Positions 3,111 through 59,069 of a stretch of 64,000 nucleotides of DNA are shown here, in pieces. The notes below the pieces were generated by a model that searched no databases, was not told where the DNA came from, and saw nothing but the letters and a program-made list of their open reading frames with translations. Within the stretch, counting starts at the first letter, position 1. Each line of letters starts with the position of its first letter. The position numbers and the translations under genes are program-made. Source of the stretch: Arenibacter hampyeongensis (GTDB lineage Bacteria > Bacteroidota > Bacteroidia > Flavobacteriales > Flavobacteriaceae); NCBI RefSeq assembly GCF_002909255.1, contig NZ_PIOB01000008.1, positions 124,001 through 188,000 of the forward strand. Direction: 5' to 3'.

Positions 3111-3124
3111 ATGATTTATATCAT
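3111..3124. promoter_or_regulatory. Operator A, divergent promoter of YtxH operon and 3201 gene
   Basis: ATGATTTATATCAT is a TGA-N6-TCA palindrome midway between the divergent starts at 3037 and 3201. The centre (3117.5) is exactly 29.5 bp from a perfect -7 box on each side: TAAATTTG at 3147-3154 (plus) and TAACTTTG at 3081-3088 (minus). The geometry predicts an operator near -41, as in class II activation by CRP/FNR-type proteins. Confidence 0.82.
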
Positions 3125-3200
3125 GTCGTAAATCTGTATGTGTACTTAAATTTGGGGTGTGTAAATACACCGACCTTGCCATTTCATAATTGTCAAAATA

Positions 3201-3695
3201 ATGAAATCTAAGGTCAACATTTTAGTAAGGAGGATTTTTGTAATAAAGGATTTTCAACATTTATGGATGTTGGGAAAAGCTATTGAAATAGTGCTTGCCA
3301 AAACGGAGATTAGGCCGCAATTGTCGGTCTTGGGAAAAATCGATAATGGCAATATTTCACTTAAGAAAATGAAGGCTGACTATGGGAAGGTATTTAAATC
3401 CCAATTGAACAGAATTTTAAAGGCCAAATCCGATTTTGGAGTTTTTGCCAACACCGAGTTTGGAATTCTCTTTATTGCGGGCAACTTGGCCCCTTTATTT
3501 CTAAATGACATATATGGGAAGCCATTAGGTACAATGTCTGCAGGTCCCTATGGTATTTTAAGGGGATTGGGCATTACCGAGGAGAAGGTAAATCATTACC
3601 TTAAATTATTGAAAGATGGGCATTACTTACTTATTGTTCGGGATTATCCACAGCATTTAAAAATGATTCAGGAACAATTGGAAACATTAAGGTAG
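3201..3695 (+). CDS. Unknown protein, possibly related to general stress protein YflT/DUF1269
   Basis: A 164-residue soluble-looking protein with no signal peptide. The C-terminal third (residues about 105-155) reads PLGTMSAGPYGILRGLGI, then a helix, then GHYLLIVRD. A Gly-rich stretch, a GLGI turn, a helix ending in a Gly and a terminal strand resemble the C-terminal part of YflT/general-stress-17M-like proteins, but the match is by eye and weak. The promoter is strong evidence of regulation: a perfect -7 box at 3147-3154 and operator A. It is therefore inferred to be co-induced with the divergent YtxH operon. Confidence 0.75.
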   Translation: MKSKVNILVRRIFVIKDFQHLWMLGKAIEIVLAKTEIRPQLSVLGKIDNGNISLKKMKADYGKVFKSQLNRILKAKSDFGVFANTEFGILFIAGNLAPLFLNDIYGKPLGTMSAGPYGILRGLGITEEKVNHYLKLLKDGHYLLIVRDYPQHLKMIQEQLETLR

Positions 3696-4128
3696 GGCAA
3701 TATAAAAACCTTAATTCATCCTTTGTCGGAGGGCATGCTACCGGGTCGACTTTGTACAAATGAAATATATTGTTTTTTGGAGTGAGGAAGTCTGTTGTTT
3801 TAAAGTAGTGAATTACACAAAATATTAAGGCACGAAAGAAATTGTAATTGCTTATCAGAGGCAAATGGAATTTCACTTAATTTTAGTTGGTATTTTTTTA
3901 GAGCTATCATAACTTAGTACGGAGGGTGTTAGGTGGATTACCGATGTCCAGGTATAGGCTATATAAACTTTTTAACGGACAGCAGTTTAGCAAGCGGAAA
4001 TTGCCAAAATACGTAACATTACCATTAAAAAGGTTCAATCAATTCTGGTTGACGCTAGAAAGAATTTGTGCCATGGCTTTTTAAAAAGATATATAGGTTA
4101 ATCAAGGTATAATTTAAAATCTAAACTA
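3696..4128. other. Intergenic stretch with a degenerate helix-turn-helix-like remnant
   Basis: There is no intact gene in these 433 bases. A short open stretch at 3991-4101 resembles the end of a sigma-region-4 or LuxR-type helix-turn-helix (separate entry). I found no TGA-N6-TCA operator and no clear -7 box for the gene at 4129. Confidence 0.5.
3949..4101 (+). pseudogene. Possible remnant of sigma-factor region 4 / LuxR-type HTH
   Basis: From 3991 to the stop at 4099-4101 one frame reads QAEIAKIRNITIKKVQSILV, then a charged helix. This is the pattern of a sigma-70 region 4 or LuxR HTH (EIA..L.I...TV). Just upstream, in a neighbouring frame, YKLFNGQQFS would align with the preceding helix if one frameshift near 3990 is allowed. 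Stops close both frames upstream and no start is seen. It may be a decayed ECF sigma-factor C-terminus, or chance; I hold it lightly. Confidence 0.22.
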
Positions 4129-4527
4129 ATGAATGCCAAATCATCAGGTTCAAATAAGTCAAAAATATTGGTTGAAGCATTGGACGTGCTACACCAAGAA
4201 AGCAGGGAGTGGATGAACACCATTGCCTTTTGGAAGGATGAGTCCAAATTTTTCACTGATTTGCTGGACAGGGAGCAAATAAATGCTTCTGAATACGGTC
4301 AGATGCTCCAATATCTGGATAAAATCCACGAAACTTTATTTGATTATTTGGCTGAAGATATTGTTGCACATGAAAAAGAGTTGTCACATTTGTTAAGTGC
4401 TGAGAAAGGAGAATCCGATAAGGCCTACCGAGAAAAACATGCTACCCTTAAGGAACAAATGGATTTATTTACCAACGACTTTAGGGAATTTAAAAAAATG
4501 GTATTTGGGTACGCCAAGAAATTGTGA
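4129..4527 (+). CDS. Unknown helical protein, paralogue of the 7465-7851 product
   Basis: A 132-residue, highly charged, all-helical protein without signal peptide or membrane helix. Residues 28-50 (WMNTIAFWKDESKFFTDLLDR) align with IWRRELFFWRDELIFFNNRL in the protein encoded at 7465-7851, and a later HETLFDYLAEDIVAHEKEL region aligns with its counterpart, so the two appear to be paralogues of similar length. The repeated aromatic pair FW-[KR]-DE is the most recognisable signature. Function unknown. The surrounding stress genes suggest a stress role. I could not define its promoter. Confidence 0.8.
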   Translation: MNAKSSGSNKSKILVEALDVLHQESREWMNTIAFWKDESKFFTDLLDREQINASEYGQMLQYLDKIHETLFDYLAEDIVAHEKELSHLLSAEKGESDKAYREKHATLKEQMDLFTNDFREFKKMVFGYAKKL

Positions 4528-4844
4528 CCATAGTGATTATGGTTGTAACGCAGCTAGTTACATGACAATAAATTAAGAAATATGTACCAACAGATTTAAA
4601 TCAGAATTTACAATAGCCTTAATGTCCCATCGAACGCAACTGAACGGCAATTATTTTTATAAATAGAAATAAAATAATGTCTGGACTCCCCTCAATCGGA
4701 GACTCAATAGAGCCAATAATTTTTGTCAACGACTAAAGTGACACGAGCTATATTCATATGAAGGCTATTCAATTCTTGACTGGTATTCGGAGATAAAAGG
4801 CCATGTAAAATTGTGTATCCAAGGATAAAGGGCCATTGTACCTC
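4528..4844. other. Intergenic, nothing recognised
   Basis: About 317 bases between convergent genes. No gene, hairpin terminator or RNA signature was recognised. A degenerate palindrome at 4592-4603 lacks the TGA half-site and any correctly spaced -7 box. Confidence 0.5.
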
Positions 4845-5609
4845 TTAGAGTTCCAATTCCAAAGCAATAGGGCAGTGGTCCGATCCAAAATAATCCGACA
4901 GGATTACAACAGATTTTATACGGTCTACCAAAGATTTGCTTACCAAAAAATAATCTATACGCCAACCGGTGTTTCTTTCCCTGGATTTAAAGCGATAACT
5001 CCAGTAGGTATAGGCCACCAAATCCGGATTAAAATGTCTAAATGAATCTACAAATCCGGCTTTGATAAAATTATCCATGCCATCAATTTCAATTTGGGTG
5101 TATCCGGCCGTTTTGTTGTAATTGCTCTTATCGTTCTTTAGGTCAATAGGTCTATGGGCTACGTTAAAATCTCCACAAGCAATTACGGGTTTTGTCTTTT
5201 CTAGATTTTTCAGGTATTTTAAAAAATCGGCATCCCATTGCTTACGGTATTCCAAACGGTCCAATTGCTGGCCCGAATTGGGTACATAAACGTTCACCAA
5301 AAAGAAGTCATCGTACTCTGCACATTGTATACGTCCTTCTGCATCATGTTCGGAAATATTCATATCCTTGGAAAGACCAAGAGGGGCTGTTTTACTCAAA
5401 ATTGCAGTACCGGAATATCCTTTTTTATCGGCCGAATTATAATTTCTTTTGTAATGTTTCAATACGGATAGTGTCTCCTCCACTTCGCTGTCCTGTGCCT
5501 TGGTTTCTTGAAGGCAAAGAATATCCGGGGCCATATTTTCCACAGTTTCAAAAAAGTCTTTTTTTGCAATGGCCCTAATGCCGTTGACGTTCCATGAAAT
5601 AATTTTCAT
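4845..5609 (-). CDS. xth: Exodeoxyribonuclease III (AP endonuclease)
   Basis: A 254-residue EEP-fold nuclease that cleaves 5' to abasic sites in base-excision repair. Motifs in order: KIISWNVNGIRA (Asn metal ligand), LCLQETKA (catalytic Glu), VNVYVPNSGQ, ACGDFNVAH (Asp/Asn), WRIDYFLVS, and the terminal GSDHCPIALEL (Asp-His). Length and motif set are those of the Xth/ExoA family. It stands alone, reading toward the plus-strand gene at 4129. Its upstream region (5610-5776) shows no stress operator, so it may be only a neighbour of the stress genes. Confidence 0.95.
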   Translation of the reverse strand: MKIISWNVNGIRAIAKKDFFETVENMAPDILCLQETKAQDSEVEETLSVLKHYKRNYNSADKKGYSGTAILSKTAPLGLSKDMNISEHDAEGRIQCAEYDDFFLVNVYVPNSGQQLDRLEYRKQWDADFLKYLKNLEKTKPVIACGDFNVAHRPIDLKNDKSNYNKTAGYTQIEIDGMDNFIKAGFVDSFRHFNPDLVAYTYWSYRFKSRERNTGWRIDYFLVSKSLVDRIKSVVILSDYFGSDHCPIALELEL

Positions 5610-5776
5610 CGCTTCAATTTTAATTTGGCCGTTAAATAGTGCCGGGAATAAAGATAATAATTAGGTTCTGTTTAAAGAAAAATGACAATTGAAAATTATT
5701 TAAATCTGTAATAAACCAAAGCAAGGAATATGTTACGGTTTATTGTTCTGGACAATGCAAAATTAAATTTGGCGGA

Positions 5777-7459
5777 TCATTCTTCCTTATTCCTGTAAAT
5801 GGAAATCAAGATAACCAATCCAATAATTGCGGAAAGTATAAAACCTATAGCACCCAACACCGGTATTCCACTAATCTTTGGAGGCATATCTGCCATTACC
5901 AAAAGGGCAGAACCTATAGATAATGCTGCAATAATTACGGCATAGACCAATCGGTTAAAGGCTGTCTTAAGGGTTATTCTAAAATCGTTGAGGCCTTTAT
6001 GCTCGTGAACAATGACCAATTTTCCGTCTTTTATCTTTTCTACAATTTCATTTATGTCGGCAGGCAATTTGTCCAGCATCACATTGTAATCTTGAAATCG
6101 ATTTAGATTCCTTTGAAAAAGTCGTTTTAAGCCAAACCGTTTTCGGGTTATTTTGGTCATAAAAGGTTTTAGATTATCCGTAATGTTGAATTCGGGATCG
6201 AGTTTTAGGCCTACCCCTTCAATAATGACCAAGGCCCTAATAAGTATATACAAGTAGTGGGGTATGGTAATCCTGTTCTCGTAAAGAATATTTTTAAATT
6301 GTTCCAAAGTTCTTCCCAACTTAATATTTCCAATGGCTGTATTGCTAATTCCTTCCACTAATTCATATAAATCATATTCCAGCTTTTTTTCATCAGGGAT
6401 ATCGGTTACTATTGCAATTTTTTTAAGAATTGGAATTATTTTCTTTACATCTTTTTTTAAAAAACAAAAGAGAAGTTCCATTAAGGATTCCTTGTCATTG
6501 GGCATTATGGTTCCCATCATCCCAAAATCTATAAAACAGATTTTTTGGACCTCAGGGAGTACAAATATATTTCCCGGATGCGGATCGGCATGAAAAAAGC
6601 CATGTTCCAAAACCTGTTCCAAATACAAGTCCACCCCAACTTTTGCCACTGCACTTGAATCTATATTTTGCTCTCGTAGTTTTTCCAGTTCGGATACCTT
6701 AATTGCGTCAACCCAGTCCATACATATAATCTGGTCTGTACTTAGTTCGCGATATGCCTTGGGAACATATATAGCATGGTTACCTTCAAAATTTTTGGCA
6801 AAACGTTCCAAATTATCCATTTCCCTTAAAAAACTAAGTTCTTCAGTGATGCTTTTTTCAAAGGATTCCACCAACTTCAGGGGCTGAAAGGCTTTTACCT
6901 GGGCACTATATTTTTCCAAGGCCGTGGCCACTTCTTTCATAATGGAAAAATAGGAAGCAATAACTTCCGATATATTTGGTCGCTGTATTTTTAGCACAAC
7001 ACAGGTGCCGTTGAGTAGTTGTGCCTTATGAACCTGTGCCAAAGAGGCGGCTGCAAGGGGTGTGGATTCAATTGAAAGGAAATATTGTGAACAGTCGATA
7101 CCCAGTTCTTCCGAGATTATTTTTTCCACTTCAAAATTCTGCAAAGATGGTGCCTGATCTTGTAGTTTTTCAAGCTCCTTAATGAGACCTAGAGGTAACA
7201 TATCGTCACGGTTGCTCAAAATCTGACCTATTTTTACATAGGAAGGGCCTAGTTCTTCCATTACCATTCGGATTCTCTCAAAAGTAGATAAGGATAACAG
7301 TTTTTCGGTCTGCGGATGTTTAGCGAGGTAATTCTTTGGGATAAACTTTCTGGCCTTACTGCTGGCCATAACATCCTCAAAACCATATTTCGTAAGAACC
7401 CTAAATAGAGTGTTGTATCTTTTGAGGTTTTGTTTCTTGGGAAGTTTTATTCCAAACAT
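5777..7459 (-). CDS. ABC1/AarF/UbiB-family atypical kinase, membrane-anchored
   Basis: A 560-residue UbiB-type protein kinase-like fold. It has the family motif PSYVKIGQILSNR (KxGQ), the Ala-rich loop PLAAASLAQVH, the ATP Lys in VVLKIQRP, HGFFHADPHPGN (catalytic Asp/Asn) and CFIDFGMMG. Two transmembrane helices close the C-terminus (about 505-525 and 533-555). UbiB-family ATPases support quinone-lipid biosynthesis or extraction; in a menaquinone-only flavobacterium the substrate is uncertain. It follows the 7465-7851 gene by 5 bp and so falls under operator B. That links it to the stress/low-energy regulon. Confidence 0.9.
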   Translation of the reverse strand: MFGIKLPKKQNLKRYNTLFRVLTKYGFEDVMASSKARKFIPKNYLAKHPQTEKLLSLSTFERIRMVMEELGPSYVKIGQILSNRDDMLPLGLIKELEKLQDQAPSLQNFEVEKIISEELGIDCSQYFLSIESTPLAAASLAQVHKAQLLNGTCVVLKIQRPNISEVIASYFSIMKEVATALEKYSAQVKAFQPLKLVESFEKSITEELSFLREMDNLERFAKNFEGNHAIYVPKAYRELSTDQIICMDWVDAIKVSELEKLREQNIDSSAVAKVGVDLYLEQVLEHGFFHADPHPGNIFVLPEVQKICFIDFGMMGTIMPNDKESLMELLFCFLKKDVKKIIPILKKIAIVTDIPDEKKLEYDLYELVEGISNTAIGNIKLGRTLEQFKNILYENRITIPHYLYILIRALVIIEGVGLKLDPEFNITDNLKPFMTKITRKRFGLKRLFQRNLNRFQDYNVMLDKLPADINEIVEKIKDGKLVIVHEHKGLNDFRITLKTAFNRLVYAVIIAALSIGSALLVMADMPPKISGIPVLGAIGFILSAIIGLVILISIYRNKEE

Positions 7460-7464
7460 ATAAA

Positions 7465-7851
7465 TTATAGATATTTCGTCAAAAATCGGAAGAAGTCTTT
7501 TTTAAGATCGGCATAAATCTGTTCTTGTGCCTCCATTTTTCCTCTAAACTGAATGTGTTTCTTTACCATTGCCGTGTCCATAGCTTCATTTGACTCTAAA
7601 TCTTGTCCAGCTAGGCGGGTTTCGTGGATTTCAATTGCTTCCAATAAATCCTCTATGACCCCACCATGTAGGATAAATTCGTTTTGAAAGTGCTCCAATT
7701 GAACGAGAAACTCCTTTTTAGTCCATCTTGTAACCATTTCGCTAAGCCTATTATTGAAAAAAATTAGTTCATCCCTCCAAAAGAAGAGTTCCCGTCTCCA
7801 TATTTCGTGTTCAAAATGCAAGTTTGAATTATATATAATTTCCTTTTCCAT
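7465..7851 (-). CDS. Unknown helical protein, paralogue of the 4129-4527 product
   Basis: A 128-residue charged helical protein. Residues 17-38 (IWRRELFFWRDELIFFNNRL) match the FW-[KR]-DE signature of its paralogue at 4129. There is no signal peptide. It is the first gene of an operon with the UbiB-like kinase (5 bp gap). Its promoter is textbook for the regulon: -7 box TAAATTTG (minus strand, 7885-7892) with operator B centred 29.5 bp upstream. Function unknown; the pairing with UbiB may mean a partner or regulator of that ATPase, which is inference only. Confidence 0.82.
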   Translation of the reverse strand: MEKEIIYNSNLHFEHEIWRRELFFWRDELIFFNNRLSEMVTRWTKKEFLVQLEHFQNEFILHGGVIEDLLEAIEIHETRLAGQDLESNEAMDTAMVKKHIQFRGKMEAQEQIYADLKKDFFRFLTKYL

Positions 7852-7914
7852 GATAATTTAAATTTTGTACAATAAGGTAGATTCCAAATTTATTTAAACC
7901 TAATATCCTTTGAA

Positions 7915-7928
7915 ATGATATATGTCAT
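7915..7928. promoter_or_regulatory. Operator B, divergent promoter of 7851 operon and DUF2892 gene
   Basis: ATGATATATGTCAT is the best-conserved copy of the operator. The minus-strand -7 box TAAATTTG (7885-7892) and the plus-strand box TTACTTTG (7951-7958, one mismatch) both sit 29.5 bp from its centre (7921.5). The plus transcript would have a leader of about 170 nt before the gene at 8137. Confidence 0.82.
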
Positions 7929-8136
7929 TTCAGGACGTATTTTTATCCCATTACTTTGAACTGTTGTATTGAATCTTGGCAAGATTGGAAAGGTGTTGGA
8001 ACATTGGTCTAGAAGTAAAGGCCTATATCTAGCCAAATTAAGTATCCAAAATTGAATCAACTGCTAAAGAAGCTTCCGAATTTATATAAAGTTGGTCGTA
8101 GGCTCTATATTTATTGTCTAACTTAAATTTATTATT

Positions 8137-8346
8137 ATGAAGAAAAACATGGGTAATTTAGACCGAATCTTCCGTTTTGTGATTGCTGCAACTTTGATTG
8201 GGCTTTATTATAACGGTACTATCCCAGGAGTCCTAGGCATTGTCCTGGTGGTTCTGGCCATTGTCTTTTTCCTGACCAGTTTTATGGGTTTTTGTCCTTT
8301 GTACCTTCCGTTTGGAATTAAAACTTGTAAGGCTAAAAAAGAATAG
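8137..8346 (+). CDS. DUF2892-type small inner-membrane protein
   Basis: A 69-residue protein: N-terminal NLDRIFRFVIA, two membrane helices (about 10-30 and 32-52), then a Cys-containing turn (GFCPLYLPFGIKTCK). This is the pattern of DUF2892 proteins, also found as the membrane tail of YgaP-type rhodanese proteins. Function unknown; the two cysteines C-terminal to the membrane helices are typical of the family. Operator B with a near-consensus -7 box at 7951-7958 lies upstream, so it is inferred to belong to the same regulon. Confidence 0.85.
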   Translation: MKKNMGNLDRIFRFVIAATLIGLYYNGTIPGVLGIVLVVLAIVFFLTSFMGFCPLYLPFGIKTCKAKKE

Positions 8347-8449
8347 GCTTAGTCCTGTAAAGGTATATTTTGCTTATTTCGGATATTAAACAATTATTGT
8401 GAATAATAGGTTTTTTCCGATTAGGGACTTGGAACCTATGGTATACAAA

Positions 8450-9640: not shown

Positions 9641-9664
9641 AGTTATGGATTTATCTTTTTAAAG

Positions 9665-11758: not shown

Positions 11759-11840
11759 AAATCAGTTAGATTTCTTAAACTTTTTATTCAAACGAATCAT
11801 TTTCCGAACGCGAAGATCGGGCTTAGAAAGATTACCTTAT

Positions 11841-11854
11841 ATGATAGATGTCAT
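11841..11854. promoter_or_regulatory. Operator C, between pta-ackA and usp
   Basis: ATGATAGATGTCAT. On the plus side, TAAATTTA (11877-11884, one mismatch to TAnnTTTG) starts 29.5 bp from the centre (11847.5) and would serve the Usp gene at 12009. On the minus side the octamer at the same distance (11811-11818) reads GATCTTCG, a 4-of-6 match, so pta may depend more strongly on the activator. Confidence 0.78.
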
Positions 11855-12008
11855 TTATTGATCCAACATAAGGCTCTAAATTTATTGGACAAACATTATC
11901 CCACTTTTAAATTTGCTGTTGGAATATACCATATAATTCGGGATAAGTTGTATTAGCACTAGAATTGGCCAGCAAGTTTATTCCTTAATATTTCAATACA
12001 ACTCAAAA

Positions 12009-12872
12009 ATGAAAACACTGCTTTATGCCACGGATTATTCAGAAAACTCAGTCTCTGCTTTGAAATTTGCACATGCGTTGAGTCTAAAACTCGGCGCACG
12101 TCTGGTTATTACCCATATATTTGAATTCCCCAGTATTTTAGGGGCCGAAGCACTAGATAATCCCCTTCCCCACATACAGGAAGTTGCTTTTAAAACCAAC
12201 CGTTCCAAGTTGGAAGAATTATGTAGGGAACATCTTGGTGGCCATTGGGATAACCCTAATATAAGATTGGAGGCAGCAGAAAACAGTTCTGTCATAAAAG
12301 GAATAATTTCCAAGGCAGAAGAGTGGCATGCCCAAATGATTGTGGTTGGCACAAAGGGAGGAAGCGGTTTGGAGGAATTGATTTTAGGCAGTACCACCAA
12401 GAAGCTAATTGAGAAGGCACCATGTCCCGTATTGGCCATTCCCAAGGATGTGGGTCGTATGAATATCCGTACCATAGTCTATGCCACAGATTTTGAGGAG
12501 GAAGATATTCATGCCATCCAAAAACTTACTGAAATTGCCGAACCATTAAAGGCTAAGATCAAGGTGGTGCATATTTCCACAAATGAAGAATATGCGGGCG
12601 ACTTGCAGATGGAGTGGTTCAAAGAATTGCTCAAAAGCAAGGTAGATTATCCTGAGATTGAATTTGAGCTATTGTTTTCAGCTGATGTTTTTGATACACT
12701 GAGAGTATATCTTGGAGTAGTAAATGCGGATATTGTTGTTATGTTGGAAAGGGAAAAGAAGGGATTTCTTAAAAAATGGTTCCATAAGGACCTAGTTAAA
12801 AAAATGGAGGACTACGGCAAGGTAAGCTTGATGAGTTTTAATGAACAAAACCACCAGACCCTGCATTTTTAA
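12009..12872 (+). CDS. Universal stress protein, tandem Usp domains
   Basis: A 287-residue protein with two UspA folds (about 1-148 and 154-285). The first domain keeps the ATP-binding pattern G-x2-G-x9-G-S/T (GTKGGSGLEELILGSTT) and the closing CPVLAIP strand. The second domain has lost this motif, as is common in tandem Usps. The role is probably nucleotide-sensing stress adaptation in the cytoplasm. It is divergent from pta-ackA and shares operator C with it, with its own near-consensus -7 box at 11877-11884. A second tandem Usp of the same type lies at 59070. Confidence 0.94.
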   Translation: MKTLLYATDYSENSVSALKFAHALSLKLGARLVITHIFEFPSILGAEALDNPLPHIQEVAFKTNRSKLEELCREHLGGHWDNPNIRLEAAENSSVIKGIISKAEEWHAQMIVVGTKGGSGLEELILGSTTKKLIEKAPCPVLAIPKDVGRMNIRTIVYATDFEEEDIHAIQKLTEIAEPLKAKIKVVHISTNEEYAGDLQMEWFKELLKSKVDYPEIEFELLFSADVFDTLRVYLGVVNADIVVMLEREKKGFLKKWFHKDLVKKMEDYGKVSLMSFNEQNHQTLHF

Positions 12873-12939
12873 ATTTTTACTTAATACCGTTTCTTTAGTG
12901 CTAAATCAATATTTGGTTGCTTCAAAATTTGAATAAGCC

Positions 12940-14105: not shown

Positions 14106-15044
14106 CTATTGTGTCTTTAGGACCCATTTGTACAAATTATCCGCATCGTTTTTATTGCACAATTGGGTACCTTCATGCATGGTGGCTGCGGTACCGCAGG
14201 CAACACCATATTTTACCATCTCACTATAGGTTTTGCCTTGAAGCAGGCTCACAATCATACCTGCCACCATACTATCACCCGCTCCAATGGTACTTTTTTG
14301 AAGGACAGTGGGTGCGGGAATATGCTCCATTAGGTTTTTAGTTGCCAATAGGGCTCCTTTTGCTCCCAAAGAGACTACTAATACCTCACAATCATGCTCA
14401 TTCAAAAACTTTTTGGCAAGTGTTTCCAGTTCCATAGCGGATATGGATTTTACCCCGCATAAGGAGCTTAGCTCGCCCAAATTGGGTTTCAGCATAAAAA
14501 CTTTGGATTTAGTGGCCTTTACCAAAGCCTCACCAGAAGTGTCCAATACAAACCTTGTCTTTTTCTTTTTGGCCACTTCGGCCACTTGTACATAAAAATC
14601 ATCGGGCATTCCAGGCGGTAATTTCCCGCTGGCCACCAAATAATCACCTTCTTCCAAATTTTTTTCCAATTGATCAAGTAAGGTTTCCCATTCTTCTTTT
14701 TCCACAATTGGCCCAGGAACCCCAAAACGGTATTGTAAATTGGTAGTGGTATCGGTAACAGCAAGATTATCTCGTGTCCATCCCTTGATGGGAATTGCCA
14801 ATTGGTCAATACCTGACTTGTCCAAAAGTTGCCTTAAATGTTCTCCTGTAGGACCGCCTGCGAGATATATGCAGAGTGAATCCATTCCCAATTTTTTAAC
14901 GGCACGTGATACATTGATGCCACCTCCTCCCGCGTCGTAAGTGGGAGCAGTACATCGGAGTTTGGTATTTGGGCTAATGCCAGCAACAGAAACGCTTTTG
15001 TCCAATACGGGATTTAAGGTAAGTGTAACTATTTTTTTGCGCAT
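14106..15044 (-). CDS. pfkB: 6-phosphofructokinase 2 / 1-phosphofructokinase family kinase
   Basis: A 312-residue PfkB/ribokinase-fold sugar-phosphate kinase. It resembles E. coli PfkB closely at several places: TLTLNPVLDKS, KLRCTAP, GGGGINVSRA, GWTRDNLAV, LPPGMPDDF, DTSGEAL, and the catalytic GAGDSMVAG. The PfkB-like LRCTAP and WTR-NL stretches favour fructose-6-phosphate over fructose-1-phosphate, but FruK activity cannot be excluded. It is followed by glk. In Mycobacterium a PfkB paralogue lies in the DosR dormancy regulon; here the gene is next to stress genes, but I see no well-spaced operator at its own promoter. Confidence 0.88.
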   Translation of the reverse strand: MRKKIVTLTLNPVLDKSVSVAGISPNTKLRCTAPTYDAGGGGINVSRAVKKLGMDSLCIYLAGGPTGEHLRQLLDKSGIDQLAIPIKGWTRDNLAVTDTTTNLQYRFGVPGPIVEKEEWETLLDQLEKNLEEGDYLVASGKLPPGMPDDFYVQVAEVAKKKKTRFVLDTSGEALVKATKSKVFMLKPNLGELSSLCGVKSISAMELETLAKKFLNEHDCEVLVVSLGAKGALLATKNLMEHIPAPTVLQKSTIGAGDSMVAGMIVSLLQGKTYSEMVKYGVACGTAATMHEGTQLCNKNDADNLYKWVLKTQ

Positions 15045-15492
15045 GTTAGTCGGAGTTTATAATTATACACGTTTCAATTAATTTGGATTTTGCAACAATT
15101 GACAAGCACTAATTCGAGGGTTTTCCATGGATCCAAATAATCGAGGACATGCATTACCTTTTCAAAATAGGATGTTCCATGTTCTGACATATGTATACCA
15201 ATTCTCATCGTTTTAAAAGGACCTCGTTTATTCAAAAAAGTCCTTTTGCAACGAAATTAAGATCGTTAATCGTTGTTTAAGCTAGATTGGATTTCGGAAC
15301 ACAATACGGTGTTCTAATTATAATTACAAAGGAAGTATTTAAGAAGCTAACGTAACATGATATTGGTCATTATGGGCATGGTAATATCAATATTATTACA
15401 GTACAGAAAGTCATGGACTATGCCTAATTATAAAGTTGCACAGGCGATAAGTGGAATATTTTTCAATTTATCCCATTGTGTTGGGAAATCTG
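15045..15492. other. Intergenic between pfkB and cupin gene
   Basis: About 448 bases upstream of the minus-strand pfkB. An imperfect palindrome TGACATATGTAT lies at 15185-15196, but no -7 box is at the regulon spacing. No RNA gene, repeat or credible ORF was seen. Confidence 0.5.
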
Positions 15493-16266: not shown

Positions 16267-16719
16267 CTAGGTCTCTTTTCTTTTTCCTGTAATCTCCAAT
16301 ATTTTGATACGGTATACGGTTGGATTACCTCGGGAATACAATTTACTGGAGAATTCACTTATAAATTCGATTTCCCTCTGCTCCTTACGTAGGATAAGAC
16401 TTTTGACCCCTTCCGTAAATTGATGCAGTTTAAACTTGGCATCGGAACCCTTAAGTTCCTCATAGGTTCCATGGGCCAAAACGGATTGCCAATTGTTTGA
16501 TGATTTTATTTCCTCCACCAACAGGGAAACGGCATTGTTTTTTCGCATGGCATCTATCTTATGGCCATCTGCTGAGTAACTTATTAATGAATGATCTTCC
16601 TTATCATAAAAATAAGTTATAGAAAGGACATAAGGTTGGTGCTGGGATATATATCCCAAGTGACCCGTGTAATTATCCTTAAGTAATCGTATACTCTCGC
16701 TAGCGGTTAAATTTGTCAT
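16267..16719 (-). CDS. Pyridoxamine 5'-phosphate oxidase-fold (FMN-binding split barrel) protein
   Basis: A 150-residue protein of the PNPOx-like/nitroimidazole-resistance type: SIRLLKDNYTGHLGY, VLSITYFYDKEDHSLISYS, then a GHKIDAMRKN loop and LVEEIKSSNNWQSVLAHGTY. Such proteins bind FMN, F420 or heme. I place the start at the ATG 16719, with an AAAAGGA Shine-Dalgarno-like stretch just upstream, rather than an in-frame TTG at 16809: the TTG falls inside the -7 box (16807-16814) that the regulon geometry predicts. Operator D2 (16837-16850) is correctly spaced. PNPOx-fold proteins are also frequent in low-oxygen regulons such as DosR. Confidence 0.85.
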   Translation of the reverse strand: MTNLTASESIRLLKDNYTGHLGYISQHQPYVLSITYFYDKEDHSLISYSADGHKIDAMRKNNAVSLLVEEIKSSNNWQSVLAHGTYEELKGSDAKFKLHQFTEGVKSLILRKEQREIEFISEFSSKLYSRGNPTVYRIKILEITGKRKET

Positions 16720-16836
16720 ATTCCTTTTTAAATAATCTATAAACTCCCTTAGTAGCTGTTGCAAGGGAATGTTCCATAAAACATTCCTAGTCAGGCTTGA
16801 TAAGATCAAATCTAGTTCCTTCTTTTCGGGTAAAAT

Positions 16837-16850
16837 ATGATATCCGTCAG
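16837..16850 (-). promoter_or_regulatory. Operator D2 with -7 box for the PNPOx-fold gene
   Basis: ATGATATCCGTCAG (plus-strand reading) keeps TGA-N6-TCA. The -7 box TAGATTTG (minus strand, 16807-16814) is perfect and 29.5 bp from the centre (16843.5). I found this site by first locating the box and then looking where the operator should be, which supports the spacing rule. Confidence 0.78.
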
Positions 16851-16895: not shown

Positions 16896-16909
16896 ATGAC
16901 CTAAGTCAT
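16896..16909 (+). promoter_or_regulatory. Operator D for the PepSY-like gene
   Basis: ATGACCTAAGTCAT, centre 16902.5. TAATTTTC (16932-16939, one mismatch to TAnnTTTG) lies at the standard 29.5 bp on the plus side. No box is at that distance on the minus side, which uses D2 instead. Confidence 0.75.
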
Positions 16910-16998
16910 TGTAGTGGCCTTAAAAGCGGGGTAATTTTCACCTCATGAATGGTTATACGTTCATGTGAACACTAATTATTAATCTAAAATAATTGATC

Positions 16999-17508
16999 AT
17001 GAAAAAATTGCTATTTGGTTTATTAGCTTTTGGACTAACCACCCTTGCCTATTCTCAAATTATTCCTACGGTGGAGCTATCGGAGGTAACCGTTTATGCC
17101 ACGAACTACAAGTATCTGAACAATGTAAACACCGAAGAGGTGGCCTCAATACCTGTGAAGCTTTTGCAGCAAAAGGTGGCAACCTATGATATTAAGAGTT
17201 CAGAATACTATCAAGATGATTACGACCTTTACAATATTACCTTCTTTATCCCCGAAGGTAAAATACTTGCCGCTTACGATAAGGATGGGAAGTTATTGCG
17301 CACTGCCGAAAAATTTAAGGATATAAATCTGCCCAGCACTATAAAGAGCGCAATTGCAGACCGTTTTCCTGGATGGACTATTACTAAGGATATTTATGTA
17401 GTTTCCTATATAGATCCCGTAGGTGCTAAGAAGACCTATAAACTGAAATTGGAGAACGAAGATAAAATGCTGCGGGTAAAGCTGGATGAAACAGGAAAAT
17501 TTCTATAA
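16999..17508 (+). CDS. Secreted PepSY-like (DUF2874-type) protein
   Basis: A 169-residue protein with a clear Sec signal peptide (MKKLLFGLLAFGLTTLAYSQ, cut after about residue 20). The mature part has tandem beta-alpha units of the PepSY-like fold: YNITFFIPEGKILAAYDKDG, LPSTIKSAIADRFPGWTI, KKTYKLKLENEDKMLRVKLDETGKF. Related periplasmic proteins occur in Bacteroidota, with no settled function. I start at the ATG 16999 because the in-frame TTG at 16993 would only add two residues in front of an ideal signal peptide. Operator D lies upstream with a near-consensus -7 box, so regulation with the stress genes is inferred. Confidence 0.82.
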   Translation: MKKLLFGLLAFGLTTLAYSQIIPTVELSEVTVYATNYKYLNNVNTEEVASIPVKLLQQKVATYDIKSSEYYQDDYDLYNITFFIPEGKILAAYDKDGKLLRTAEKFKDINLPSTIKSAIADRFPGWTITKDIYVVSYIDPVGAKKTYKLKLENEDKMLRVKLDETGKFL

Positions 17509-17897
17509 GCGGTAAGCACATTCACCGGCGCATATATTAAATTGGGATAAAAGTAAAAGATTTAGTTTCCAAATTAAGTTAATGGACATTTTCAAGACGG
17601 TGGGTCTGAGATTCCCGTTTTGGTAATGTCCTTTTACGTTGGGTAAGTTGTAACTTCATTTTATATGCTGTCTATTGAATGTGTCTAAATGAATTGCAGG
17701 CAATCCGCGTTGTGAAATAAGGATTGGGGTCAAGAAGTCTAAAAACTGTAATGCATTCAATTCTATGATCAAGAGCTTTATTGGAGGAAATCCAACAAAA
17801 TTATTGTGAATAACCCCAATGATTAAAACTTTATGACATTTCTCATAGTCTCCATGGTTTAATTCCCTTTATTTTGAACTAGCCTAACTTAATATCA
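17509..17897. other. Intergenic with efflux-operon promoter
   Basis: About 389 bases. The first 320 hold nothing I recognise. The last part contains operator E and the -7 box of the efflux operon. Confidence 0.6.
17833..17846 (+). promoter_or_regulatory. Operator E for ABC efflux operon
   Basis: ATGACATTTCTCAT, centre 17839.5; TTATTTTG (17869-17876, one mismatch to TAnnTTTG) follows at 29.5 bp. The start codon at 17898 is close behind, so the leader is only about 15-20 nt. Confidence 0.75.
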
Positions 17898-18980
17898 ATG
17901 AGGAATTTTTTCTGGATAAATTTTCTTTTTCTTTTCATATCCTGTGGAAGCCAACAAGAAAAGATATTCCCTGCTAAACAGCATTTAACGGAATCGGTCT
18001 ATGCTTCCGTAACCGTGCAACCAGATAGTCTTTATCAGGCCTATGCCCCCGTGGGCGGTATTTTGGACTTTAATTTATTGGAGGAAGGCGATATGGTAAT
18101 AAAGGGAACTCCAATTGTTCAGATTGTTAATAACACTCCGAAACTCAATTCTGATAATGCCCGCTTGGCACTCGAAATGGCCCAGGCAAATTATTCAGGA
18201 AGTTCAGCGGTATTGAGTTCTTTGGAAGATGAGATCCAATCGGCCACCTTAACCTTTAAAAACGACTCCATGAACTTTATAAGGCAAAGGAGGCTTTGGG
18301 ATCAAAATATTGGATCAAAATTGGAGTTCGAGAACCGAAAGTTGGCGTTTGAAATTTCAGGAAATAATTTGAAGCAGTTGAAGAACAATTATGTCCTAAC
18401 TAGGAAGGAACTGGCTACCAAAGTGCAACAGGCCAGAAACAACTATGCCAGCTCAAAGATCTCTACCCAGGATTTTACCGTAGCCAGTAAAATTAAAGGT
18501 AAGGTCTATGCCCTTTATAAAGACCCAGGGGAAATAGTAAACACTATGGAACCATTGGCGGCTGTAGGTAGTGCCTCTGATTTTATTATTGAATTGTTGA
18601 TAGATGAGGTCGATATCGTAAAATTGGATTTGGGTAAGAATGTGCTGATTACTTTGGATGCATATGGAGATCAGGTTTTTGAAGCTAAATTGAATAAAAT
18701 ATATCCCAAAAAAGATGAACGTTCACAGACCTTTAAAGCGGAGGCAATTTTTAACGATCCTCCAAAGTCCCTTTTCCCTGGTTTGGCCGGAGAGGCCAAT
18801 ATAATTATTTTCCAAAAGGAGGAGGCCTTGACCATACCCAAGGAGTATTTGATGGAAGGGAATAAAGTGAGGACCGTAGACGGATTGGTTGATGTTGTTT
18901 TGGGACTTCAAAATTTAGATCGTGTTGAAATTTTGGAGGGTATTACCGAGACCACAGAAATTCTAAAACCTGAGGAATGA
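17898..18980 (+). CDS. Periplasmic adaptor (HlyD/MacA-like) lipoprotein of ABC exporter
   Basis: A 360-residue membrane-fusion protein. The signal ends in a lipobox (FLFISCGS, Cys16). A biotinyl-lipoyl-like half (APVGGILDFNLLEEGDMV) precedes a long coiled-coil hairpin (about 85-190) and the second half-motif (SKIKGKVYALYKDPGEIV), then a beta-barrel domain (about 225-315). It would link the inner-membrane exporter to an outer-membrane channel or deliver lipids. The next gene overlaps by 4 bp (ATGA). The operon promoter has operator E. Confidence 0.9.
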   Translation: MRNFFWINFLFLFISCGSQQEKIFPAKQHLTESVYASVTVQPDSLYQAYAPVGGILDFNLLEEGDMVIKGTPIVQIVNNTPKLNSDNARLALEMAQANYSGSSAVLSSLEDEIQSATLTFKNDSMNFIRQRRLWDQNIGSKLEFENRKLAFEISGNNLKQLKNNYVLTRKELATKVQQARNNYASSKISTQDFTVASKIKGKVYALYKDPGEIVNTMEPLAAVGSASDFIIELLIDEVDIVKLDLGKNVLITLDAYGDQVFEAKLNKIYPKKDERSQTFKAEAIFNDPPKSLFPGLAGEANIIIFQKEEALTIPKEYLMEGNKVRTVDGLVDVVLGLQNLDRVEILEGITETTEILKPEE

Positions 18981-47597: not shown

Positions 47598-47642
47598 AGA
47601 TTGGATTTAGGGATATAATAATTGTAACAACGATAACAAAAA

Positions 47643-50825: not shown

Positions 50826-50892
50826 TGGCAGGAAGGTATCACTTCAGTACTACTGGAAATATTAAATTATCTTATTTATCTATAAATGGATT

Positions 50893-52515: not shown

Positions 52516-52534
52516 AAGTAAAGGACATCATTAT

Positions 52535-53494: not shown

Positions 53495-53539
53495 AATGAT
53501 TTTCGTTCTTTACATTTGCAGAATCATAAATAAATTGGA

Positions 53540-54679: not shown

Positions 54680-54705
54680 CACCTATTTCAATTTTTATTT
54701 ATACG

Positions 54706-54736
54706 ATCCTTCAGGCTATTCTGAGGGATTTTTTTT
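54706..54736 (+). terminator. Rho-independent terminator after FGE gene
   Basis: ATCCTTCAG (54706-54714) pairs with CTGAGGGAT (54721-54729) with one G-T wobble and a 6-nt loop, followed by eight T (54729-54736). It ends the PUL plus-strand arm before galK. Confidence 0.85.
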
Positions 54737-54779
54737 GGATTATTTTCCAATTGTGCCATGAAAGGTATGGGTTTCACCT

Positions 54780-54802
54780 ATAAATGTAAATTTTACATTT
54801 AT
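54780..54802. promoter_or_regulatory. Inverted-repeat operator of galKT
   Basis: Perfect 11-bp arms (ATAAATGTAAA and TTTACATTTAT) around one central T, centre 54791. It occupies the place where the -33 element would be, 25 bp before the -7 box TATATTTG (54816-54823). It is unlike the TGA-N6-TCA operator, so another regulator (GntR/LacI/MarR class) is likely. Confidence 0.7.
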
Positions 54803-54815
54803 AAATTATTTTTGC

Positions 54816-54823
54816 TATATTTG
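54816..54823 (+). promoter_or_regulatory. -7 box of galKT promoter
   Basis: TATATTTG fits the Bacteroidota TAnnTTTG consensus; the galK ATG follows at 54847. Confidence 0.65.
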
Positions 54824-54846
54824 TAATCTTAATAACATTTCAATTT

Positions 54847-55977: not shown

Positions 55978-55982
55978 TCGCA

Positions 55983-57029
55983 ATGGCAAATAATTTTAAT
56001 AACAACCCACATAGAAGATTAAATATCCTAACAGGAGAATGGATTTTGGTATCTCCACATAGAACCAAAAGGCCCTGGCAGGGAAAGACCGAAAAAAGTG
56101 CTTCTACGGACCTGCCCGTTTACGACCCTACCTGCTATCTATGTCCGACCAACGAAAGAATGGGAGGAGAGCTTAATCCCAGTTACGAAAGGCCATATTC
56201 TTTTGTCAATGACTTTTCGGCACTACTGCCGGATGTTGCAGAAGAAACCTTCGAAAATGGTCTGCTTTATGCGGAAGCGGAATCCGGTATTTGCAAGGTC
56301 GTTTGTTTTTCTCCGAACCATGCCCTGACATTACCTTTAATGTCTTTATCGGATATTACAGATGTAATTTCCCTTTGGCAGAAGGAATATAGGGAATTGG
56401 GGACTAATGAAGCCATCAACTATGTTCAGATTTTCGAAAATAAAGGTGGTATAATGGGATGTAGTAACCCCCATCCACATGGACAAATTTGGGCACAAAA
56501 TAATATACCACAGGAGGTACAAAAGAAAATAGGTAATCTAAAGGCCTATTGGGAAAAGAACAAAAGAAGTATTTTAGAGGATTATATTGAACAGGAATTG
56601 AAGTTGGATGAACGCATAATAGTTGAAAATGAGCATTTTGTAGCGCTGATTCCTTATTGGGCGGTTTGGCCTTATGAGACTATGATCCTTCCCAAAAGAA
56701 AATTGGCACATATCGGTTTGCTTTCAGAAAGCGAAAAGCGTTCCTACGCTGAAATACTGAAACAGCTTACCATTAAGTACGATAATATATTCAACACCTC
56801 TTTTCCATATTCTGCAGGCATACATCAGGCGCCAACAGATGGAAAGGACCATCCGGAATGGCATTTTCATATGTCGTTTTATCCGCCTTTACTACGATCG
56901 GCAACTGTAAAAAAGTTTATGGTAGGTTATGAGATGTTTGCCAATCCACAACGCGACATTACTGCCGAACAAGCAGCGGAAACTATGAAGTCGTTACCTA
57001 ACGCACATTATAGTCTGTTGGAAGAATAG
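55983..57029 (+). CDS. galT: Galactose-1-phosphate uridylyltransferase
   Basis: A 348-residue GalT. The catalytic nucleotide-binding motif is NPHPHGQIWA (HPHGQ), and the zinc Cys pair is in YLCPTNER. Other family segments are HRRLNILTGEWILVSPHR, FVNDFSALLPD and EWHFHMSFYPPLLRS. It completes the Leloir step Gal-1-P to UDP-Gal. No epimerase (galE) is in the window. Convergent with the 57093 gene. Confidence 0.95.
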   Translation: MANNFNNNPHRRLNILTGEWILVSPHRTKRPWQGKTEKSASTDLPVYDPTCYLCPTNERMGGELNPSYERPYSFVNDFSALLPDVAEETFENGLLYAEAESGICKVVCFSPNHALTLPLMSLSDITDVISLWQKEYRELGTNEAINYVQIFENKGGIMGCSNPHPHGQIWAQNNIPQEVQKKIGNLKAYWEKNKRSILEDYIEQELKLDERIIVENEHFVALIPYWAVWPYETMILPKRKLAHIGLLSESEKRSYAEILKQLTIKYDNIFNTSFPYSAGIHQAPTDGKDHPEWHFHMSFYPPLLRSATVKKFMVGYEMFANPQRDITAEQAAETMKSLPNAHYSLLEE

Positions 57030-57092
57030 ATACGCGGATTAATTTTAATTTCGAAATATAGAAGAGTCTTGTTGCTTTTAGCAGGAATGGGC

Positions 57093-57308
57093 TTAGAGTA
57101 AGGGAGTGTTTTGAAGGGAATATCCAACTCGGCCAAGTTCTTTTTTGGCCTTGTCCAACACAAAGGGGTTATTATATACTAGGGAGATTGTTTTGTTAAT
57201 AATATCAATGTCCAAAATTCTTAAATCCAAAATCCGGCTAAGATTTCTTGTTATAATACTTTTATTTTCTTCAGAAATAAATTGTTCAACTTTAATCAGT
57301 GTTGTCAT
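57093..57308 (-). CDS. Small HMA-fold protein without CxxC (regulon member)
   Basis: A 71-residue protein with a ferredoxin-like beta-alpha-beta-beta-alpha-beta pattern (TLIKVEQFISEENKSIITRNL, RILDIDIINKTISLVY, VLDKAKKELGRVGYSL) but no metal-binding CxxC. It resembles the 25165 protein in fold rather than sequence. Function unknown. The promoter has a perfect -7 box TAAATTTG (minus strand, 57336-57343) and operator F at the standard distance, which argues that it is a real, regulated gene despite its size. Confidence 0.75.
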   Translation of the reverse strand: MTTLIKVEQFISEENKSIITRNLSRILDLRILDIDIINKTISLVYNNPFVLDKAKKELGRVGYSLQNTPLL

Positions 57309-57365
57309 GGCATCAGGGATTGGGATTACCTATTTCAAATTTAGGGATCCAACACATTATGTAAA

Positions 57366-57379
57366 ATGATTTAAATCAG
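57366..57379 (-). promoter_or_regulatory. Operator F upstream of HMA-fold gene
   Basis: ATGATTTAAATCAG (centre 57372.5) keeps TGA-N6-TCA. The -7 box at 57336-57343 is perfect and exactly 29.5 bp away. This site lies 40 kb from the main cluster. Confidence 0.75.
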
Positions 57380-57486
57380 TTGAGCTATTTATTTTCCAAT
57401 TCATTTTTTTGAACTCTTAGGGATTTAGGGAAATTTATATTGCGTTTGCTATCGGATTGAAACTTGCTCCATCTGTGGTCTTGGTC

Positions 57487-57774
57487 TTATTCATAAAGGT
57501 CCAGCCTGTTTTTGAGATGGGTAATTTCATCCTGCATTTTTTCAATTTTGTTAAGAAGTTGGGTAATAACGGCTATGCCTTCCAAATTGATATCCAGATC
57601 GGAATAGAGCCTAATTATTTTTTCCGCTTTGGGCAATTGTTGAATGGGGAGATAACGTACATTTTCTTTAATAATAACATCTACCAGGCCATATTCATAA
57701 AGTTCCATCACGAAATGTGTTTCAATATTATGACTTAAACAGAAGTCGGTAATTAATATATAATCCTTTTCCAT
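57487..57774 (-). CDS. cbpM: CbpM-like chaperone modulator
   Basis: A 95-residue MerR-HTH-like protein: DYILITDFCLSHNIETHFV, LYEYGLVDVI, RYLPIQQLPKAEKIIRLYSDL, LEGIAVITQLLNKIEKMQDEI. This is the CbpM pattern (modulator of the J-protein CbpA), with a coiled C-terminus. It follows cbpA by 64 bp on the same strand, as in other cbpA-cbpM pairs, and would inhibit or tune CbpA-DnaK action. Confidence 0.85.
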   Translation of the reverse strand: MEKDYILITDFCLSHNIETHFVMELYEYGLVDVIIKENVRYLPIQQLPKAEKIIRLYSDLDINLEGIAVITQLLNKIEKMQDEITHLKNRLDLYE

Positions 57775-57838
57775 GCGATTAAATTTTGGATAGGGAATAC
57801 TTAATGCCTAAGGCAAGTTTCTCTATCCGTATACATTA

Positions 57839-58732
57839 TTATTTTCTTAGCTCTGCCAGTTCCTTAAATAAATCTTTTTCCTTTTGCGTTAAATTGGTAG
57901 GGGTAACAAGGTTATAGGTAATATATAGATTTCCATAGGCATCATTTTTTTTGTACACGGGGAAGCCCTTGCCTTTTAATTTTATTTTGGTGCCGTTCTG
58001 CGTTTCTGGTTTAACTTTTAGTTTTACTTGTCCGTCAAAAGTATTCACCATTATTTCACCTCCCAATAAGGCAGTATATAAGTCTAGGTTTACAGAAGTA
58101 TACAAATCGTTACCATCCCTTTTAAAGGGAGTATCGTTTATGATTCCAAAGGTAATATATAGGTCGCCATTGGGCCCTCCTTGGTGACCAGGTCCCCCAT
58201 GTCCGCTAATTTTTATGGTTTGCCCATTTTCGATTCCCGCAGGGACCGTAATCCTGATATTCTTACCATTTACATTTAGCGTCTGCTTGTGGGTCTTAAA
58301 AACATCACTTATATGTAATTTTAATTCAGCATTTAGATCCTGACCTCGAAAACGTGCCTGACCTCTTCCGGAAAAACTACTGGAACCTCCAAACATAGAT
58401 TCGAAAAAATCCGAGAAATCCTGTTCTCCATATTTTTGTGCAGTACTTCTCCTGCCTCTACTGTAATTGGAGCCCTGTGATGATTGTGCCTTTTCAAATT
58501 CTTCTGCATGCTGCCAATCCTTGCCGTACTTATCGTATTTTTTACGCTTTTCAGGGTCGGCCAATACTTCGTTGGCTTCATTAATTTCCTTAAATTTCTT
58601 TTCAGCCTCTTTATCGTTTGGATTAACATCCGGATGGTGTTTTCGGGCCAATTTACGGTACGCTTTTTTGATGTCGCTTTGGCTGGCACCTTTGTCCAAG
58701 CCCAATATTTTGTAATAGTCTATAAAATTCAC
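57839..58732 (-). CDS. cbpA: CbpA-type DnaJ co-chaperone, GTG start
   Basis: A 297-residue J protein. The J domain (1-70) has the HPD motif in [12 protein letters not shown] Gly/Ser/Phe-rich linker follows, then two DnaJ-C peptide-binding domains (from about 128, [16 protein letters not shown]), without the zinc-finger domain, so it is of the CbpA type. The start is GTG at 58732: the frame is closed by TAA upstream and no ATG lies in between. Operator G with a perfect minus-strand -7 box (58853-58860) is upstream. Stress-regulated protein folding, with cbpM. Confidence 0.93.
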
Positions 58733-59069
58733 CTGTCCGTTATTTATACTTTACACTTAAGTGTTTGTTCAACCGATCTTATAAAAAGCATTTTCATTTG
58801 AAATGCTTACTTCTCCAATTTCGAAAATTCCAATGGGACCAGTTGCATGTGGCAAAATTATTTAAAACGATCGTTGATTCAACTGATGAAAATCATATCA
58901 CGTTCCATATTATTCCTTAAATTTAATAGAAACTTATGTAAAAGTGACAATGAATAATATCTGTATTAAGATAATCATTAATTCATTCCAAAGTGGATTT
59001 TAAGGATGTATGAATTAGAGGTTAAAACCTATATACAATTGTACTTTTTATGCACTTAAAAATATTCAA
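58733..59069. other. Divergent intergenic region cbpA / usp
   Basis: 337 bases holding operator G and candidate -7 boxes in both directions; otherwise AT-rich, with no gene seen. Confidence 0.6.
58883..58896. promoter_or_regulatory. Operator G between cbpA and usp
   Basis: CTGATGAAAATCAT, centre 58889.5. TAATTTTG (minus strand, 58853-58860) is a perfect -7 box at 29.5 bp for cbpA. On the plus side TAAATTTA (58918-58925) is 28.5 bp away, one base off, so usp control is less sure. Confidence 0.7.

Follow-up and report, generated by a model that had tools for sequence, protein, structure and literature searches.

The closest described counterparts of the arrangement reported here are class II promoters of the Crp/Fnr family in proteobacteria, in which a palindromic operator sits at or near −41.5 from the transcription start. 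The consulted sections of two reports describe FNR boxes of Sphingopyxis granuli at −41.5 (ccoN, uspA and a cupin gene) and at −42.5 (hemN2; PMC7713065), and an fnr1 promoter of Herbaspirillum seropedicae that is taken to be class II and to need two Fnr proteins (PMC5934665). Within Bacteroidetes, comparative genomics has delineated the Crp/Fnr-family regulators HcpR and HcpR2 of Bacteroides and others, and in the section of that study consulted here HcpR2 differs in its motif (GTAACnnnnGTTAC), in a proline at position 181 and in its targets, mainly hcp (PMC1274295). MalR-type Crp/Fnr homologues of Flavobacteriales, from a reactor with changing oxygen, were assigned to carbon sensing through a Bacteroides MalR matrix, and the consulted part of that report does not mention the promoter layout (PMC8510549). 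Here, we analyzed a 64,000-nucleotide stretch of the Arenibacter hampyeongensis genome (hereafter the window, always at its full length), which carries repeated TGA-N6-TCA operators at one fixed distance from a TAnnTTTG-like −7 box.

An initial sequence-only reading had listed eight such operators in the window, eleven promoter directions with a box exactly 29.5 base pairs (bp) from the operator center and a twelfth one base off. We defined the gap as the distance separating the last base of the operator 12-mer from the T that opens the box, graded every box against the six consensus bases of TAnnTTTG and scored both directions of every site. All eight operators and all six boxes described as perfect (3081, 3147, 7885, 16807, 57336 and 58853) were present where they had been placed, with a gap of 23 in all six perfect pairs. 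Ten directions at the exact spacing were borne out (six perfect and four with 5/6 matching bases) and the eleventh was not, the next-best boxes at gap 23 being those of 11842 minus (GATCTTCG) and 57367 plus (CATTTTTT), each 4/6. The twelfth direction, at 58918, indeed had a gap of 22 and a 5/6 box. The motif TGAYnnnnRTCA had been proposed for all eight sites, yet the one at 17833 (TGACATTTCTCA) is a TGA-N6-TCA without the RTCA half. We additionally found a site that was absent from the list, at 15358–15369, with the box TTCCTTTG at 15327–15334 upstream of a PfkB-type kinase gene.

The window contained 14 strict operators compared to a chance mean of 4.1 (standard deviation 2.1), and 8/14 carried, toward one side or both, a gap-23 box of 5/6 or better, while the remaining six had none. 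The six perfect gap-23 pairs compare with a mean of 0.007 and a maximum of 1 in 300 dinucleotide shuffles, and at every other gap between 10 and 60 at most one perfect pair was detected. The operators are twofold symmetric and of the TGA-N6-TCA type, as in class II Crp/Fnr promoters. The operator–box observation is real and not a product of chance, and the initial reading is confirmed in part. Neither Rfam families (gathering thresholds) nor tRNAs were detected within the window.

Extending the search to the whole genome, as the sequence-only reading had suggested, gave the same picture. A scan for an operator, a gap of 10–36 and a perfect box, blind to the sites already listed, yielded 38 pairs, 19 of them at gap 23; the remaining 19 were spread over 26 other gaps (0–3 per gap), and the reversed pattern gave six matches over all gaps. 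Judged by eye on the 30 genome matches given loci, the operator overlapped an open reading frame (ORF) of at least 100 amino acids in 1/11 gap-23 matches versus 12/19 matches at other gaps; the single overlap at gap 23 fell into an over-long N-terminus. Besides the six in the window, gap-23 pairs precede deoC, nirK and hemN (all passing their NCBIfam cut-offs), a cytochrome c gene (passing its Pfam cut-off), an fnr-like gene, a sulfate-permease-family gene, a gene for an HYC_CC_PP family protein, three universal-stress-like genes (one profile-scanned) and a gene for a thioredoxin-reductase-like flavoprotein that scores below the cut-off of that model. Gap-23 pairs likewise stand in front of the kinase/receiver-Crp operon and of a patatin gene that is divergent. 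By site prediction, the regulon contains low-oxygen genes (hemN, nirK, cytochrome c and the divergent P-ATPase gene) and includes the gene of its own FNR-like protein, as expected for FNR. Three pairs of this genome have a gap of 24 (C22:104440, C22:291220 and C1:685674) and two of these closely precede an ORF; they are possibly tolerated one-base variants.

To follow the individual promoters, we examined 12 relatives, counting as a pair any operator with a gap-23 box of 5/6 or better; the relatives are close kin and the counts are not independent. The operator TGATTTATATCA (3112–3123) has perfect boxes in both divergent directions, TAACTTTG (3081–3088, minus) toward a YtxH-like gene (2708–3037, minus; Pfam YtxH), the first gene downstream, and TAAATTTG (3147–3154, plus) toward an ORF at 3201–3695 (plus). 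The pair was retained in 12/12 and 9/10 orthologues, respectively. The operator TGATATATGTCA (7916–7927) likewise has boxes in both divergent directions, with a perfect box TAAATTTG (7885–7892, minus) toward a small ORF (7465–7851, minus), which is followed by an ABC1-type kinase gene (5777–7459), and a 5/6 box TTACTTTG (7951–7958, plus) toward the gene of a YgaP-like membrane protein (8137–8346, plus; Pfam); orthologues kept the pair in 11/11 cases on either side. In these two promoters, the TGA/TCA half-sites were 100% (12 relatives) and 94% (11 relatives) identical and the boxes 78–95%, compared to 59 and 62% for the spacers and 59 and 42% for other intergenic DNA. Phylogenetic footprinting, the check proposed earlier, thus found operators and boxes better kept than spacers.

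Downstream of the operator TGATAGATGTCA (11842–11853), a 5/6 box TAAATTTA (11877–11884, plus) points to a universal stress protein gene (12009–12872, plus; Pfam Usp), and the pair was found before 10/10 orthologues. We also considered pta-ackA as a target of this site and found it unsupported, given the 4/6 minus box and the lack of a gap-23 box of 5/6 in 10/10 orthologues. The unlisted operator TGATATTGGTCA (15358–15369), with its 5/6 box at gap 23 on the minus strand, faces a PfkB-family hexose kinase gene (14106–15044, minus; NCBIfam TIGR03168); 4/10 orthologues had a pair within a 300-bp limit, which misses the window's own site. The operator TGATATCCGTCA (16838–16849) has a perfect box TAGATTTG (16807–16814, minus) and a pyridoxamine-phosphate-oxidase-like gene (16267–16809, minus; Pfam) with a pair in 5/8 orthologues. 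As this box overlaps the first codons of the annotated ORF, the true start probably lies further in. From the operator TGACCTAAGTCA (16897–16908), a 5/6 box TAATTTTC (16932–16939, plus) at gap 23 points to an ORF at 16993–17508, of which no orthologue was found in the regions of the 12 relatives. The degenerate operator at 17834–17845 has a 5/6 box TTATTTTG (17869–17876, plus) toward the gene of an HlyD-family membrane-fusion protein (17898–18980, plus; Pfam), for which one of two orthologues had gap 23 and the other gap 24.

Toward the end of the window, the operator TGATTTAAATCA (57367–57378) is paired with a perfect box TAAATTTG (57336–57343, minus) toward an ORF of 71 amino acids (57093–57308, minus), which had no Pfam match and scored 25.8 bits against the copper-chaperone model CsoZ, below its cut-off of 77. 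The operator TGATGAAAATCA (58884–58895) has a perfect box TAATTTTG at gap 23 (58853–58860, minus), downstream of which lie genes for a DnaJ-like co-chaperone (57839–58732, minus; Pfam) and a MerR_2 protein (57487–57774), presumably of the CbpA and CbpM types. On its other side is the 5/6 box TAAATTTA at gap 22 (58918–58925, plus), followed by a second universal stress protein gene (59070–59909, plus; Pfam Usp).

Among genes for which no site had been claimed, gap-23 pairs were absent upstream of the orthologues of the receiver-Crp gene (0/12), the ABC1 kinase gene (0/10), ackA (0/10), pta (0/10), the glucokinase gene (0/11) and a cupin gene (0/6). For an ORF at 4129, 2/11 orthologues had a pair, and in one of these two the neighboring ORF 3201 was not found. 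Four small ORFs next to or near operators (3201–3695, 4129–4527, 7465–7851 and 16993–17508) had no Pfam or NCBIfam match; those at 3201 and 7465 are conserved along with the operator in relatives.

Five Crp-family proteins of this genome exceed the Pfam cut-off. Three of them, an FNR-like protein and two receiver-Crp fusions of which one is encoded in the window, share a recognition helix, and the other two do not. The helix glutamate and arginine corresponding to CRP E181 and R185 are invariant in 82/82 FNR-like and 43/43 receiver-Crp proteins, and arginine never occupies the position of CRP R180 (threonine in 80/82 and 36/43, respectively). The consulted section of PMC1274295 assigns A6 of the site to E181 and, in CRP sites, the additional G to R180; by this rule, the missing arginine at 180 predicts recognition of TGA without that G. 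The genome hence encodes Crp/Fnr proteins whose recognition helix matches the operator.

The fusion in the window (1033–2100, plus; receiver, cyclic-nucleotide-binding fold and HTH_Crp_2 by Pfam) is a candidate regulator of the operators. Its receiver residues D9, D52 and K104 and its helix residues E318 and R322 are invariant in 43/43 homologues, and it combines an intact receiver with a Crp-type output. A partner is at hand in the sensor histidine kinase whose gene (window positions 1–1055, frame 6–1055, plus) overlaps that of the regulator from 1033 onward. Only the C-terminal part of this kinase lies in the window; the complete protein has 917 amino acids, starts 1.7 kilobases (kb) before the window (L033 302–3055) and carries, in the part upstream, repeated PAS domains as well as one that is LOV-like. 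Residues 382–512 matched the YtvA-family blue-light model NF052652 (E = 2.8e-41, 141.7 bits, whole-protein cut-off 250), and the kinase scored 125.1 bits against a blue-light kinase model (whole-protein cut-off 450). The LOV-like domain contains GRNCRFLQ, which fits GxNCRFLQ, the motif of LOV photoreceptors. The pairing of this kinase with a receiver-Crp regulator suggests, as far as domain content can tell, a light or flavin-redox input to the regulon. The operon has its own perfect pair (L033 131–142, box 166–173).

About 15 kb upstream of the window (L032 5485–6537 and 6545–8059), the genome encodes another receiver-Crp regulator along with a PAS kinase that belongs to it. Close to it, we noted seven universal-stress-like genes and genes for Hsp20-like, cation-ATPase-like and M50/CBS-like protease proteins (names assigned by eye). 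The genes near the regulators (names partly by eye), for universal stress proteins, Hsp20, PfkB, an M50/CBS protease and a cation ATPase, presumably resemble the content of the mycobacterial DosR dormancy regulon, which is run by another regulator family.

The FNR-like gene (L036 988–1734) lies beside a copper-type P-ATPase gene, presumably of the ccoI type. The operator between the two is flanked at gap 23 by a box on either side, perfect on the side of fnr and 5/6 on that of the ATPase gene, and shares the two-way layout of the site at 3112. The FNR-like protein is 95% identical to its counterpart in A. catalasegens. It scored 105.6 bits against the curated NCBIfam Fnr model, below the cut-off of 228. 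The ligand cysteines of Escherichia coli FNR are C20, C23, C29 and C122. Four cysteines are invariant in 82/82 FNR-like proteins, three of which match FNR ligands; the third ligand, C29, has no equivalent, and the fourth invariant cysteine is found elsewhere, at C73. With E. coli FNR and the FNR structures 5E44 and 5CVR, presumably from Aliivibrio fischeri, the FNR-like proteins share the fold family, the helix glutamate and arginine, the N-terminal CxxC and the ‘VCEIP’ cysteine. The best PDB match of the FNR-like profile was the Crp/Fnr-family protein 2GAU (E = 1.1e-29), presumably from Porphyromonas gingivalis, which differs at the recognition position (aligned ‘NMTVSNAIR’, no glutamate). 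The AlphaFold model of the A. catalasegens protein (mean predicted local distance difference test score 60, predicted template modeling score 0.42) was unusable for judging the proximity of the cysteines.

To gain insights into the prevalence of the operator–box pair, we searched 197 Bacteroidia genomes with a gap of 28 and the reversed pattern as controls. The search yielded 687 gap-23 matches in 162/197 genomes compared to 55 matches at gap 28 (42/197 genomes), a ratio of about twelve, and 16 reversed matches. The pairs co-occur with the regulator family: 167 genomes with a relative of the cyclic-nucleotide-binding and helix-turn-helix part of the regulator (E ≤ 1e-6) had about 4 sites on average, versus 0.57 in the 30 genomes without one (P = 3e-11, uncorrected for genome size). 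Around 80 fnr-like genes of Flavobacteriaceae and their kin, 67 strict pairs had gap 23 and seven had any other gap between 5 and 60. A sign of autoregulation was found in 46 of the 56 fnr-like genes whose start could be located by pattern (24 loci were left out), which have, within 200 bp upstream, a TGA-N6-TCA and a gap-23 box of 5/6 or better; the 80 loci are close kin and not independent. Around 40 receiver-Crp genes of other genomes, we counted 18 gap-23 matches in 15/40 regions. For the division into genomes with receiver-Crp fusions and 72 others, matches were listed down to E ≈ 8e-31, and the others may also hold fusions. The operator-to-core distance is accordingly fixed at every scale we inspected, from the window and the genome to the 40 and 80 regions and the 197 genomes.

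In Flavobacterium psychrophilum, the consulted section of a transcription start-site map places TAnnTTTG at −12 to −5 (PMC9723704). With the first T of the box at −12, the operator center would fall at −41.5, where FNR sits in class II promoters. The proposal of the sequence-only reading that the operator lies near −41, replaces the −33 element and marks a regulon is therefore supported by the genome enrichment, the footprinting and this published box position from another species. Very probably, Crp/Fnr-family activators use the window sites as operators of class II promoters in a low-oxygen and stress programme. Computation establishes the site, its fixed spacing, its conservation, the gene content and the co-occurrence with the regulator family; we infer binding, activation, the signal and the assignment of paralogues to promoters as follows. 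A dimer would bind TGA-N6-TCA centered at −41.5, substituting for the −33 element, and would aid RNA polymerase in using the box at −12 to −5; an operator flanked by boxes could serve two divergent promoters. The ancestral reader would most likely be the FNR-like protein, a putative sensor of oxygen or redox state that has four invariant cysteines; the same operators may be read in this genome by two receiver-Crp fusions with PAS/LOV-like kinases. The predicted output is low-oxygen and stress survival, through nirK, hemN, cytochrome c, the fnr-like gene, universal stress proteins, the DnaJ-like co-chaperone and others.

Several points weigh against this reading. The −12 position of the box is borrowed from F. 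psychrophilum, the low-oxygen signal is read from gene names, and the sites cannot tell the three paralogous regulators apart. Of the 30 genomes without a regulator relative, 13 have at least one match and three have two or three. Seven genomes of the genus without a close counterpart of the window regulator still average 11.9 sites, and one of them (G201) retains window-like promoter sequences; genomes that yielded only FNR-like proteins have the sites as well. In the surroundings of receiver-Crp genes elsewhere, 25/40 regions have no gap-23 pair and homologues of pta, ackA, pfkB, the glucokinase and the ABC1 kinase occur in 0/40, while universal-stress-like genes occur in 23/40. Together, these three counts indicate that the receiver-Crp neighborhood is only loosely conserved.

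In one alternative, the window operators belong solely to the receiver-Crp fusions and the PAS/LOV-like kinases paired with them, forming a light- or redox-responsive two-component regulon, with the FNR-like protein acting elsewhere. The fusion and its kinase are indeed encoded close to the window targets, and their operon has a perfect pair of its own. Moreover, the 11 genus genomes with a counterpart of the window regulator (this one included) have more sites than those without, 19.2 versus 11.9 on average, and the 18 gap-23 matches near fusion genes elsewhere fit as well. We nevertheless consider this alternative unlikely, because genus members without a close counterpart keep many sites, 11 family members with only FNR-like frames (at a limit of E 1e-20) average 7.4 sites, and the recognition helices are near-identical.

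Considerably less probable is a dimer that acts mainly as a repressor by blocking the −33 region. An operator that covers the −33 element could keep polymerase out, and repression by FNR proteins is also described as possible in the consulted part of PMC7713065; the same text, on the other hand, calls the −41.5/−42.5 FNR boxes at ccoN, uspA and hemN2 of Sphingopyxis class II activated. A spacing that is strictly fixed across the class would moreover be expected of an activator touching polymerase, whereas a blocking site would tolerate shifts. That an unrelated regulator family reads the palindrome and the Crp/Fnr match is coincidental is very improbable: Crp/Fnr binding is a prediction here, but the sites co-occur with the regulator family, stand before most located fnr-like genes (46/56) and agree with the recognition-helix rule. 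Finally, chance pairing in AT-rich intergenic DNA can practically be dismissed, for even though part of the initial sites had been located via the spacing itself, gap 23 peaks in the genome, the 40 receiver-Crp regions and the 80 fnr-like regions and leads by 687 to 55 in the 197 genomes.

The regions around the 40 receiver-Crp genes showed a second peak, at gap 45 (14 matches), with at most three matches at any gap other than 23 and 45. Each of the 14 comprised two TGA-N6-TCA operators spaced by 22 bp, the nearer of which was at gap 23. This tandem pattern occurs 163 times in 75/197 genomes, compared to 0 for the reversed control, and in 0/30 genomes without the regulator family. In the A. 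hampyeongensis genome itself, neither the gap-45 scan nor the tandem-pattern scan found a tandem pair. An ORF was obtained downstream at 29/30 tandem loci (30 ORFs, some perhaps spurious), 10/30 of which were scanned with Pfam. The scanned ORFs encode haem-copper oxidase subunit I, a metal P-ATPase, cytochrome c, oxidase subunit II, Hsp20, Usp, DnaJ, a CoA-ligase-like protein and a DoxX protein, and one had no match. We considered tandem operators as a mark of receiver-Crp regulators and rejected this, as genomes where only an FNR-like protein turned up (G016, G192, G116 and G167) carry them too.

Among the tandem operators of relatives (loci L079–L118 and L119–L148), three are spaced 23 instead of 22 bp, and the nearer operator is often degenerate. 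A small protein of about 122–136 amino acids with a start like MKITINDxRKI--IQ--F---FPYLKIEFF recurs downstream of such operators (L093, L099, L105, L110, L117 and L128); the copy scanned (L128) had no Pfam match.

Tentatively, and as a possibility that falls somewhat short of probable, these findings may extend to a Bacteroidia-wide low-oxygen regulon on one operator grammar, with a single operator at −41.5 or a tandem at −63.5 and −41.5 (22 bp, same helix face). It would be read by an FNR-like sensor with rearranged cluster cysteines as well as by receiver-Crp fusions, and phosphorelays, one of which includes a LOV-like domain, would feed the same promoters as oxygen.

The supposition of the sequence-only reading that the layout is undescribed holds in part: the arrangement itself is known from class II Crp/Fnr promoters of proteobacteria, while a description of such a regulon in flavobacteria was not found. 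For Bacteroidota as a whole, there was none among the matches listed from the open-access literature (titles and abstract starts), a scope outside which most subscription papers lie. In contrast to proteobacterial class II FNR promoters, the core here is the TAnnTTTG of Bacteroidota, the flanks are A/C-TGAY instead of TTGAT, receiver-Crp fusions are among the regulators and relatives commonly have tandem pairs spaced by 22 bp. What appears new against this literature is the breadth across the class, the receiver-Crp fusions on the same operator and the tandem operators, whereas the layout itself is of a known kind.

Transcription control in Bacteroidota is poorly mapped, and a search for an operator joined to a box at a single exact spacing requires no prior data. 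This two-part signature points to probable regulators and yields testable predictions of low-oxygen regulons. It further prompts two questions, by what means an FNR-like protein whose cysteine has moved would detect oxygen, and for what reason Crp fusions of the two-component kind joined the same operator.

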